A DNA stretch of 64,000 bases, taken from an uncultured Alphaproteobacteria bacterium (GTDB lineage Bacteria > Pseudomonadota > Alphaproteobacteria > Geminicoccales > Geminicoccaceae). Below are positions 40,706 through 44,207 of this stretch, one piece after another (within the stretch, counting starts at the first letter, position 1; every line of letters begins with the position of its first letter). A program made the position numbers and the translations under genes. The notes below the pieces were generated by a model. It had not been told where the DNA came from and ran no database searches. It was given only the letters and a program-made list of their open reading frames with translations. The DNA is taken from assembly GCA_937995535.1 (NCBI GenBank), contig CALKJU010000009.1, forward strand, positions 124,001 to 188,000, in the 5' to 3' direction.

Positions 40706-42022
40706 TCAGAGGATGAACTTGCTGAGGTCGGCGCCCTCGAGCAGGGAGCCGACCTTGGCGCGGACATAGTCGCGGTCGACTCGGACCGTCTCGCCGCTCC
40801 GGTCGCTGGCGTTGAAGCTGACGTCCTCGACCAGCTTCTCCATGACCGTCTGCAGCCGCCGGGCGCCGATGTTCTCGACCCGGCTGTTCATGTCGTGGGC
40901 GAGGCTGGCGATCTCCGCCACCGCGTCCGTGGTCACGTCGAGGGTGACGCCCTCGGTGCCGAGCAGCGCCACGTACTGCTTGAGCAGGCTCGCCTCCGGC
41001 TCGACCAGGATGCGGGCCAGGTCCTCGCGGCCGAGCGCGTCGAGCTGGACGCGGATCGGCAGCCGGCCCTGCAGCTCCGGCAGCAGGTCGGACGGTTTGG
41101 TGAGGTGGAAGGCACCCGACGCGATGAACAGGATGTGATCGGTGCGCACCGGCCCGTGCTTGGTGGTCACGGTGGTCCCCTCGATCAACGGCAGGAGGTC
41201 GCGCTGGACGCCCTCGCGGCTGACGTCGGCGCCGATCCGCCCCTCCCGGGCGCTGATCTTGTCGATCTCGTCGAGGAACACGATGCCGTTCTGCTCGACC
41301 GACTCGATCGCCTCGCGGGTGACGCGCTCGGGGTCGAGCAACTTGTCGCTCTCCTCGGCGATCAGCACCTCATAGCTCTCGGCCACGGTCATCTTGCGGC
41401 GCTTGGTGCGCGGGCCGAACGCCTTGCCGAGAATGTCGCCGAGATTGACCATGCCCATCTGCGCCCCCGGCATGCCCGGGATGTCGAAGGCCGGCATGCC
41501 GAGCGGCTGGGTATCCTGCACGTCGAGCTCAATCTCGCGCTGGGCGAGCGCCCCGTCGCGCAGGATCTTGCGCAGCTTCTCGCGGGTGTCGCGGCTGGCC
41601 GCGGTCGAACCCGCGAGCAGCGCGTCCAGGACCCGCTCCTCAGCATTGCGCTCCGCCTGCGCGGCGACCTCCTTGCGCAGCCGGCTACGGGTCAGCTTCA
41701 ATGCGATCTCGACGAGGTCGCGGACGATGCTCTCGACGTCCCGACCGACATAGCCGACCTCGGTGAACTTGGTCGCCTCGACCTTGAGGAACGGTGCCTG
41801 GGCGAGGCGCGCGAGGCGGCGCGCGATCTCGGTCTTTCCGCACCCCGTCGGGCCGATCATCAGGATGTTCTTCGGCAGCACCTCCTCGCGAAGGGCCTCG
41901 TCCAGCTGCTGCCGGCGCCAGCGATTGCGCAGCGCGATCGCGACCGCCCGCTTGGCCGCATGCTGGCCGACGATGAAGCGGTCGAGTTCGGAGACGATCT
42001 CGCGGGGGGTCAGGGCACTCAT
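40706..42022 (-). CDS. hslU: HslU, ATPase subunit of the HslUV protease
   Basis: A 438-residue AAA+ unfoldase. The Walker A site is GPTGCGKT (residues 57-64), Walker B is in [12 protein letters not shown], and the I domain lies between about 110 and 240. The C-terminal end DLSKFIL is the motif that docks into HslV, as in other HslU. It overlaps hslV by ATGA and is the second gene of that operon. The protease degrades misfolded and regulatory proteins at high temperature. Confidence 0.97.
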
Positions 42023-42576
42023 GCGCGCTCGATCGTCTCGATGGTGACGTTGCGGTTGGTGTAGACGCAGATGTCGGCGGCGATGCCGAGCGCCTTGCGG
42101 GCGATGCTCTCCGCGGTGAGGCCGTCGATGTCGATCAGCGCGCGCGCGGCGGCGAGCGCGTAGGTGCCGCCCGAGCCGATGCCAATCAGCCCGTCCTCGG
42201 GCTCGAGCACGTCGCCCATGCCGGTCACGACCAAGGACACCTCGGCGTCGGCGACGGCCATCATCGCCTCGAGCCGGCGCAGATAACGGTCGGTCCGCCA
42301 GTCCTTGGCGAGCTCGACGCAGGCGCGGGTGAGCTGGCCTGGATGCCGCTCCAGCTTCGCCTCGAGGCGCTCGAGCAGGGTGAAGGCGTCGGCGGTGCTG
42401 CCGGCGAAGCCGGCGAGGATGTGCCCGCCGCCGACCCGCCGCACCTTGCGCGCGTTGCCCTTGATGACCGTCTGGTTGAGGCTGACCTGGCCGTCGCCGG
42501 CGATCACCACCTGAGCGCCTTTGCGCACGGAGAGGATCGTCGTGCCGTGCCACGGCCCGGGCGCCGTGCCGTCCAT
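42019..42576 (-). CDS. hslV: HslV, peptidase subunit of the HslUV protease
   Basis: A 185-residue proteasome-beta-like peptidase. Removal of the 11-12 residue propeptide exposes the Thr of [31 protein letters not shown] and [14 protein letters not shown] are conserved. It is the first gene of hslVU. A heat-shock-type element lies 47-75 nt upstream. Confidence 0.97.
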
Positions 42577-42622
42577 CCCACCCTACCCACGGAGGATCGC
42601 GCCTGCCGCGCGAACCGCCCGG

Positions 42623-42651
42623 ATGTGGGCAGGGCCGCAGCCCCGGTCAAG
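42623..42651 (-). promoter_or_regulatory. candidate heat-shock (RpoH-type) promoter of hslVU
   Basis: On the minus strand CTTGAC (42651-42646), 16 nt, then CCCACAT (42629-42623) resembles the CTTGA-N13-17-CCCCAT class of heat-shock promoters. A housekeeping reading is weaker. Confidence 0.35.
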
Positions 42652-42665
42652 GCGCCGCCGCTGGC

Positions 42666-42902
42666 TCAGTCGGCGGCCAGCTCCATTGCCTCGACGGCGA
42701 TCGCCAGAGCACGCAAAGCCGCGATCAGCCCGGGCTCGTCGCGCAGGCGGAACGCACAGGTGACCAGGACCGCGGCTGTGATCACCGGATCCACCGGGCT
42801 TTCCCCGGCCGCCGTCTCGGGCCGTGCGTGGTCGCTGTTCGCGGGTTCCGGACCGCGTCCAGCGGGTCGCACCAGATCGCGCATCAGCGGCCGAGCGTGC
42901 AT
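42666..42902 (-). CDS. small hypothetical protein
   Basis: A possible 78-residue product from ATG 42902 with AAGGGG 6 nt upstream. The C-terminal half (VITAAVLVTCAFRLRDEPGL and then IAALRALAIAVEAMELAAD) forms amphipathic helices without a recognizable domain or membrane segment. It lies downstream of a strong terminator hairpin and 89 nt upstream of hslV on the same strand. I do not recognize it; it may be a real small gene controlled by attenuation, or a chance reading frame. Confidence 0.35.
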   Translation of the reverse strand: MHARPLMRDLVRPAGRGPEPANSDHARPETAAGESPVDPVITAAVLVTCAFRLRDEPGLIAALRALAIAVEAMELAAD

Positions 42903-42921
42903 GCCACACCCCTTCTCTGCC

Positions 42922-42941
42922 GGGGCTGCTGTCGCAGCCCC
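42922..42941 (-). promoter_or_regulatory. second hairpin between terminator and hypothetical ORF
   Basis: GGGGCTGC/GCAGCCCC is an 8-bp perfect stem with a 4-nt loop, 3 nt beyond the U-tract of the terminator and 19 nt before the ORF start. Together with the terminator it gives two tandem hairpins, an arrangement suggestive of attenuation. Confidence 0.45.
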
Positions 42942-42944
42942 TCC

Positions 42945-42981
42945 AAAAAAGTCGCCCCCGCGAGGCCGAGCCTGCGGGGGC
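42945..42981 (-). terminator. Rho-independent terminator
   Basis: On the minus strand GCCCCCGC, a 12-nt loop and GCGGGGGC (42981-42954) are followed by GAC and six T residues (42950-42945). It is the only classical T-tract terminator I find in the window and it terminates leftward transcription. Confidence 0.8.
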
Positions 42982-43013
42982 AATTAGGGAGGGAGGCACC
43001 GTCTGACTTGACA
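42945..43013 (-). ncRNA. candidate ~69-nt small RNA with anti-Shine-Dalgarno motif
   Basis: A minus-strand promoter (43048-43020) is followed by about 69 nt ending in a textbook Rho-independent terminator. The transcript would begin near 43013, contain the single-stranded motif CCUCCCUCCC (anti-SD-like), and end with an 8-bp GC stem plus U6. This architecture resembles the alphaproteobacterial CCUCCUCCC (cuckoo-type) sRNAs. The alternative is a leader/attenuator for the downstream small ORF and hslVU. No coding sequence overlaps it. Confidence 0.45.
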
Positions 43014-43016
43014 AGT
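43006..43016. promoter_or_regulatory. 11-bp palindrome ACTTGACAAGT at predicted RNA start
   Basis: ACTTG-A-CAAGT (43006-43016) overlaps the predicted start of the leftward RNA and could be a repressor site. The TTGACA inside it is not followed by a good -10 on the plus strand. Confidence 0.35.
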
Positions 43017-43019
43017 GGC

Positions 43020-43048
43020 AGATTAGCGGACGTTCCGTTCGCGATCAA
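43020..43048 (-). promoter_or_regulatory. promoter of the candidate small RNA
   Basis: TTGATC (43048-43043), a 17-nt spacer and TAATCT (43025-43020) on the minus strand. The -35 is 4/6 and the -10 is moderate. Confidence 0.4.
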
Positions 43049-43079
43049 GAGAAAAATTCACCCGATATAAAGATTCGTG

Positions 43080-43330
43080 CGGCGAGGCCTTGGTGATCTC
43101 CTGCAGCCATTGCGACGATTTTATCGACAAGTTTAGGGGACTTATCCCCAGACCGCCGGAGAGGTCTCCCACAGCTTTATCATGATGCGATTCCAACGAC
43201 ATAGCCGCCCTGTCTCGTTGATTGTTTACTTGAGATCCCCAGATGGAGCGCGTCCCGACGGCCAGCGATGGTGGCCGACCCGGCCGCCCGGTGTCCTCGA
43301 CGGCAGCATCAGAATCGGGTCATAATCTGT
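43080..43330. other. AT-richer intergenic region with DnaA-box-like sites and small inverted repeats
   Basis: No gene is supported between the small RNA and yebC. On the plus strand TTATCGACA (43120-43128) and TTATCCCCA (43142-43150) each match the DnaA box TTATCCACA at 8 of 9 bases. GGGGA/TCCCC (43135-43149) and AGACC/GGTCT (43150-43167) are short inverted repeats. The base composition is visibly less GC-rich than the rest of the window. It could be part of a replication origin or simply a regulatory region. Confidence 0.35.
43297..43326 (+). promoter_or_regulatory. candidate promoter of yebC-ruvCAB
   Basis: TCGACG (43297-43302), an 18-nt spacer and CATAAT (43321-43326), 131 nt before the yebC ATG. 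The -10 is 5/6, the -35 is weaker. Confidence 0.4.
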
Positions 43331-43457
43331 TGTTAGGTTGAGGTTCTTCTGGCACGGTGGCGGTCTGTCGCTGGCGCTCTCGGTCCCGCTCCCGGTTGGC
43401 GGCGCCGGCGGCCCTGGTGTAGACCGCTCCGCGCAGATCGACGACGACGCCCGGACG

Positions 43458-44207
43458 ACCATGGCAGGGCATTCGCAGTTCAAGAACATCATGCACCGCA
43501 AGGGTCGCCAGGACGCGACCCGGGCACGCATGTTCACGAAGATCATCCGCGAGATCGTGACCGCGGCGCGCGCCGGGCTGCCCGACCCGGCGGCGAATCC
43601 GCGGCTGCGCGCGGCGATCCAGGCCGCGCGCGCGGCGAACGTGCCCAAGGACAACATCGAGCGGGCGCTGAAGAAGGTACAGGGCGGTCAGGCCGAGAGC
43701 TACGAGGAGGTCCGCTACGAGGGTTACGGTCCGGCGGGGGTCGCGCTGATCGTCGAGGCGCTTACCGACAACCGCAACCGCACCGCGAGCGAGATCCGAG
43801 CCGCGTTCAGCCGCCACGGCGGGGCCTTGGGCGAGACCAACAGCGTGAGCTACCAGTTCGACCGTGTCGGACTCGTGCTCTACCCGGCGGAGGTCGCAAC
43901 CGCCGACGCCATGCTCGAGGCGGCGATCGAGGCCGGCGCCAGCGACTGCCAGAGCAGCGAGGCCGGGCACGAGATCACCTGCGATCCCGAGGAGCTGGCC
44001 GCCGTGCGCGACGCGCTGGAGGCGCGCTTCGGCCCACCCTCCGAGGCGCGGCTCGGCTGGCGCCCGCAGGCGACCGTGCCGGTCGACGACGAGCGGGCGC
44101 CGGAGCTGTTCAAGCTGATCGAGCAGCTCGACGACAATGACGACGTGCAGCGGGTGATCGCGAACTTCGAAGTGTCGGACGCGGTGCTCGCCCGTCTCGG
44201 CGGCTGA
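43458..44207 (+). CDS. yebC: YebC/PmpR family DNA-binding transcriptional regulator
   Basis: A 249-residue YebC-family protein. [18 protein letters not shown] is the invariant start, followed by [35 protein letters not shown] and the C-terminal [20 protein letters not shown] and IANFEVSD. These proteins bind DNA or, in some lineages, ribosomes to relieve polyproline stalling. It ends directly before ruvC (the next base starts ruvC), the standard yebC-ruvCAB order. Confidence 0.97.

Follow-up and report, generated by a model that had tools for sequence, protein, structure and literature searches.

In a 64,000-nt stretch of a Geminicoccaceae genome (here called the window), the region between hslV and the divergent gene yebC holds a compact unit on the minus strand: a -10 element, 7 nt, a head, a short spacer, a terminator hairpin and six T. 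An earlier note had proposed a small RNA (sRNA) with an anti-Shine-Dalgarno (anti-SD) motif at this place. This is also the reading best supported by the present analysis; promoter, motif and terminator are conserved in the relatives that possess the unit (the carriers). The features, with positions in the window, are as follows.

43043 to 43048, minus strand: -35 element TTGATC, read from the sequence; the distance of its TTG to the head is constant (±1 nt) in 22 of 22 carrier loci.
43020 to 43025, minus strand: -10 element TAATCT, after a spacer of 17 nt, read from the sequence; TANNNT stands 6-7 nt 5′ of the head in 17 of 22 carrier loci.
42945 to 43012, minus strand: predicted sRNA of 68 nt; a conserved unit of 65-73 nt in carriers, scoring 83 bits with a covariance model.
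42987 to 43012, minus strand: ultraconserved 26-nt head GTCAAGTCAGACGGTGCCTCCCTCCC; 14 contiguous bases are identical in 22 genomes, the others nearly so.
42987 to 42996, minus strand: anti-SD motif CCUCCCUCCC, predicted unpaired in the single-sequence fold and mostly unpaired in the consensus fold.
42945 to 42983, minus strand: intrinsic terminator, a GC-rich hairpin (42983-42952) with T6 at 42950-42945, computed at -26.9 kcal/mol.
42666 to 42902, minus strand: small ORF (smORF) of 78 aa, starting 42 nt past the T-tract; orthologues occupy the same place in all carriers but one (21 of 22) and also in five relatives that have no sRNA.
42623 to 42651, minus strand: sigma-32-like promoter of hslV, CTTGACC-N15-CCCACAT, read from the sequence; the pattern recurs in the smORF-hslV gap of several relatives.
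42019 to 42576, minus strand: hslV, the downstream gene (ORF; orthologues by tblastn).
43461 to 44207, plus strand: yebC, the divergent neighbor (ORF; orthologues by tblastn).

As far as contigs reach, the gene order common to carriers is hslU-hslV-smORF-RNA-yebC-ruvC, with yebC divergent. The unit adjoins yebC in all 22 carriers and lies upstream of smORF-hslVU in 21 of them.

The minus-strand promoter with its 17-nt spacer is present as originally described (TTGATC at 43048-43043, TAATCT at 43025-43020). By consensus it is weak, with 7 of 12 positions matching, and it goes unreported in a generic promoter scan. The case for the promoter therefore rests on conservation, namely the placing of the two elements relative to the head that is given above.

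The earlier note also described an 11-bp palindrome, ACTTGACAAGT, at the start of the RNA. It is present in this sequence but is not conserved: relatives keep only the GTCAAGT half, and the full palindrome is unique to the source genome. As an operator the palindrome was ruled out, its left half not being conserved. The wider proposal, that the first 26 transcribed bases are preserved as DNA for the binding of a transcription factor, is very improbable. A stretch adjoining +1 is a usual place for a repressor to bind, but no conserved symmetry is seen, and the palindrome-making half is absent in relatives. Moreover, the element is followed immediately by an intrinsic terminator whose sequence varies while its fold stays constant, which points to RNA.

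The predicted transcript runs for 68 nt (43012-42945), in line with the approximately 69 nt and T-tract terminator first suggested. The terminator hairpin with its T6 folds at -26 to -27 kcal/mol and holds nearly all the stability of the RNA, leaving the C-rich motif unpaired; none of 200 shuffled sequences folds equally well. The pyrimidine motif CCUCCCUCCC, reported earlier as unpaired, is present and predicted to be so in the single-sequence fold. The terminator had also been called the only classical one of its kind in the window. A scan of both strands of the 64 kb for T5+ runs behind hairpins below -9 kcal/mol finds the strong site here, but also one other, weak site (-10.8 kcal/mol, T5).

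Among carriers, neither the loop nor the stem of the terminator has a constant sequence; folding energies are -22 to -29 kcal/mol in 21 of the 22. (At locus L019 the script took as tail a T-run that belongs to the loop; the true tail lies further on.) The 8-bp basal helix is 95% paired and its covariation score exceeds those of all 500 shuffles and all slid controls, a score to be read with the caveat that most of the pairs are nearly invariant. The length of the predicted RNA is nearly constant as well, at 65-73 nt. A putative 5′ mini-hairpin, GUC/GAC, varies little among carriers.

The distribution of the unit is narrow and its core is nearly frozen. By blastn against 96 genomes (the source genome and relatives), the element is found in 22, all of them Geminicoccaceae and spread over 11 genera, and in none of the others. 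A covariance search of related genomes, which the earlier note had suggested, finds the same carriers: a model built from 21 copies recovers 22 of the 31 family genomes, every other match being far weaker (E-values of this model are rough). Each carrier has one full copy except G020, which has two, both at contig ends of a fragmented draft. Promoter, motif and terminator, on whose conservation in relatives the earlier note had staked its reading, are conserved among the carriers. The 14-mer GACGGTGCCTCCCT is invariant in the 22 loci, and the 26-nt head is nearly so, with a pairwise identity of 0.96-1.0 in the median and 92-94% in the mean. For comparison, third bases at conserved degenerate codons of the neighboring yebC and hslV agree pairwise in 56-60% (median), and only some tenth of them show no change at any of the loci (5/51 and 5/67). 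By this measure, conservation of the head greatly exceeds that of neutral sites, and its surroundings have drifted.

It might be argued that chance has set a C-rich tract between a weak promoter and a terminator, as the generic scans find no promoter at the site and show terminators in the region to be no commoner than expected. Conservation contradicts this reading, which is barely credible given an identical core at the same place in 22 genomes. From sequence comparison, then, it looks like a real, conserved and hitherto undescribed small-RNA unit of Geminicoccaceae.

Outside the family little resembles it. A 19-mer of the head, AGTCAGACGGTGCCTCCCT, occurs among 84,980 species in 21 stretches, only on contigs of the Geminicoccaceae type. 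Most of these bear the title Geminicoccaceae, Rhodospirillales or Alphaproteobacteria; one, L035, is labelled 'Patescibacteria group bacterium' and is probably mis-binned. A search for homologues beyond the family with GACGGTGCCTCCCTNC gave two non-family matches in 385 genomes of the class (G193 and G157); the one that was read, in G193, apparently lies inside a coding sequence. The covariance model gave 12 weak matches in other families of the class. Eight of these were read: each is a C-rich tract followed by an unrelated terminator, and none adjoins hslV or yebC. These matches too were discarded as homologues. One of the weak matches, L329, carries GACGCCTCCCTCCC ahead of its terminator. 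The element (L329:1501-1561, minus strand) belongs to a different alphaproteobacterial family, where it lies in what may be a prophage, with GACTGACGCCTCCCTCCC directly 5′ of an intrinsic terminator; its design is similar, its place is unrelated, and it may be convergent. Another tract, TTTCCTCCCTATCC, stands before a strong terminator (L071:1501-1559, minus strand) in G007, a family member that lacks the RNA at the usual locus.

According to the earlier note, no coding sequence overlaps the candidate. No named gene does, but the smORF at 42902-42666, whose start lies 42 nt past the T-tract, had been missed. In relatives it encodes 63-90 aa, and 21 of 22 carriers have its start 25-52 nt past the T-tract. 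The N-terminus of the protein varies; a block at the C-terminus, VVSAAxLVxTAFRLRDExxLVxALRRLxxAV, is conserved. The AlphaFold model has helices at 39-52 and 56-77 with pLDDT above 90, and the C-terminus is accordingly predicted to be a two-helix hairpin. The protein matched no Pfam or NCBIfam family, and the DUF1127 models matched none of 24 orthologues. Since the smORF lies too close to the T-tract to have a promoter of its own, it probably depends on the sRNA promoter through read-through of the terminator. The same need not hold for hslVU, because a sigma-32-like promoter appears to sit between the smORF and hslV.

This arrangement admits a cis-acting explanation, in which the head serves as a sensor that, together with a protein or the ribosome, decides on read-through into the smORF, and the short RNA is a by-product. 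The constant position of the RNA in the leader of the same smORF in 21 of 22 carriers can also be explained by such a role, and with no room for a separate promoter in the 25-52 nt that follow the T-tract, read-through would be needed. A promoter similar to that of the sRNA can be read upstream of the smORF in several RNA-less relatives, where it would drive the smORF directly. Attenuation in the leader of a small gene is also on record in alphaproteobacteria: the S. meliloti DUF1127 leader has a C-rich element, needs a translated upstream ORF and probably involves Rho (PMC12218461). The likeness to that system is the C-rich element in a small-gene leader; the locus described here differs in having an intrinsic terminator and no evident upstream ORF. 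Other observations speak against attenuation. The head has no upstream ORF bearing a ribosome-binding site. The C-rich head offers no fold alternative to the terminator, and neither the consensus nor the single-sequence folds make evident any helix that would disrupt the terminator; a classical antiterminator is not evident because both the head and the 5′ arm of the terminator are rich in C and so cannot pair with each other. Nor does the head pair better with the SD of the smORF than with controls: the mean is -20.7 kcal/mol for smORF start regions and -22.8 kcal/mol for control starts with GGAGG. A leader peptide, GTG-CCT-CCC-TCC, was considered separately and rejected by inference; it has no SD, its wobble bases are invariant and its distance to the next element is variable.

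In some genomes the RNA and the smORF have parted. G004 has the whole unit (promoter, head and terminator) beside yebC, but neither smORF nor hslV follows it; instead a gene in convergent orientation comes next. Conversely, G007, G009, G013, G018 and G024 keep the smORF and hslV while the full RNA is missing, and nothing resembling it is found around yebC in these five. In G009 a remnant, TGCCTCCCT, stands between the promoter and the smORF with no terminator (L083:1093 onward), apparently a product of decay of the RNA. Non-carriers are scattered on the RpoH tree. The simplest history would be an ancestral RNA with several losses, because independent gains of one sequence at one site are implausible. 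As the RNA and the smORF separate in both directions, a trans-acting sRNA is favored over a leader attenuator, which we regard as unlikely though not far-fetched.

The best explanation, and in our judgment the probable one, is that the smORF leader gives rise to an anti-SD sRNA acting in trans. The 68-nt RNA would have a housekeeping-type promoter and an intrinsic terminator of its own, and the terminator hairpin would protect the 3′ end. The unpaired 5′ head would present GGUGCCUCCCUCCC, which is complementary to strong SD regions, and would pair with those (GGGAGGCACC and shorter) of several mRNAs, thereby blocking ribosome binding. Read-through of the terminator would supply the mRNA of the downstream smORF, which would make the unit a 5′-leader-derived sRNA.

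Candidate targets were sought as GGAGGCACC-N0-7-ATG in all family genomes, the downstream ORFs being read for a sample. An apparent transporter regulon was considered and dropped: solute-binding proteins make up about 10 of 50 genes at GGAGGCACC starts against about 7 of 52 at scrambled sites (GGAGGACCC and GGAGGCCAC), an enrichment that is not significant. Within one genus (L294-L299), five of the six genomes have GGAGGCACC-ATG in the start region of rpoH, which could pair without mismatch to nine bases in the head of the RNA. The match was noticed post hoc, and rpoH SDs of the GGAGGC/GGAGGCA type occur across the family in carriers and non-carriers alike; rpoH is a target candidate only. One may imagine a switch in which the terminated leader lowers translation of rpoH and other strong-SD mRNAs, read-through makes the new small protein, and the sigma-32 regulon is thereby tied to the RNA head. 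This is a long shot. If true, it would provide a lineage-specific link between the sigma-32 regulon and a single conserved head, beside which hslVU stands with its sigma-32-like promoter.

How does the RNA compare with those already described? Rfam covariance models, a check proposed at the outset, gave no match up to E = 5 over 42500-43500. The earlier note had likened the motif to that of the cuckoo sRNAs. The alpha-r14/cuckoo RNAs (NfeR1 of Sinorhizobium, CcsR1-4 of Rhodobacter) have an unpaired, C-rich anti-SD motif that is ultraconserved while the stems drift (PMC10746234, PMC3927594), and silencing through such unpaired motifs is established for NfeR1 (PMC10746234). The present alphaproteobacterial RNA shares the unpaired, ultraconserved motif and the drift of the stem. 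However, cuckoo RNAs are described as having three or more hairpins with CCUCCUCCC in each loop, and often a DUF1127 gene adjoining (the CIN1 locus; PMC10253847), whereas here one CCUCCCUCCC lies in an unpaired head outside the single strong hairpin, conservation reaches 26 nt, and there is no DUF1127 neighbor. The likeness is thus functional at most, and by their descriptions the Geminicoccaceae RNA is not a member of that group. AbcR1 and AbcR2 also use an anti-SD-like motif and silence mRNAs, e.g., of transporter binding proteins (as summarized in PMC10746234). The present RNA has such a motif but only one seed, has no Rfam match, and loses the transporter enrichment against the control.

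The closest architectural precedent is UpsM of Rhodobacter sphaeroides, a family-restricted sRNA released where an intrinsic terminator interrupts the dcw cluster's 268-nt leader (PMC5089854). Both are family-restricted and end at an intrinsic terminator within the 5′ leader of a conserved gene. The architecture is found in 21 of 22 carriers: a promoter, an intrinsic terminator and, 25-52 nt downstream, an ORF with no room for a promoter of its own. The present RNA differs in being approximately 68 nt long and in preceding the smORF and hslVU, and the locus (smORF-hslVU/yebC, Geminicoccaceae) is not that of the UpsM family proper (dcw/mraZ leader, Rhodobacteraceae). Rfam and genome searches revealed no sequence relation between the two. 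The double role proposed for UpsM, with a trans function for the terminated leader and, in addition, regulation of the terminator, here to set the level of the smORF, would suit the matching architecture and family restriction (PMC5089854) and the smORF's seeming need for read-through. The separation of the RNA and the smORF in both directions argues against it, and we consider it improbable.

In closing, Rfam and literature searches found no described small RNA of Geminicoccaceae, and the present one, if a real sRNA, would be the first for the family. It would represent a simpler design of anti-SD sRNA in alphaproteobacteria, in which a single long, ultraconserved head takes the place of hairpin loops in series. 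As the promoter and the smORF persist without the RNA in some relatives, and the RNA without the smORF in one, the family may offer a natural comparison of leader-derived sRNAs with attenuators.
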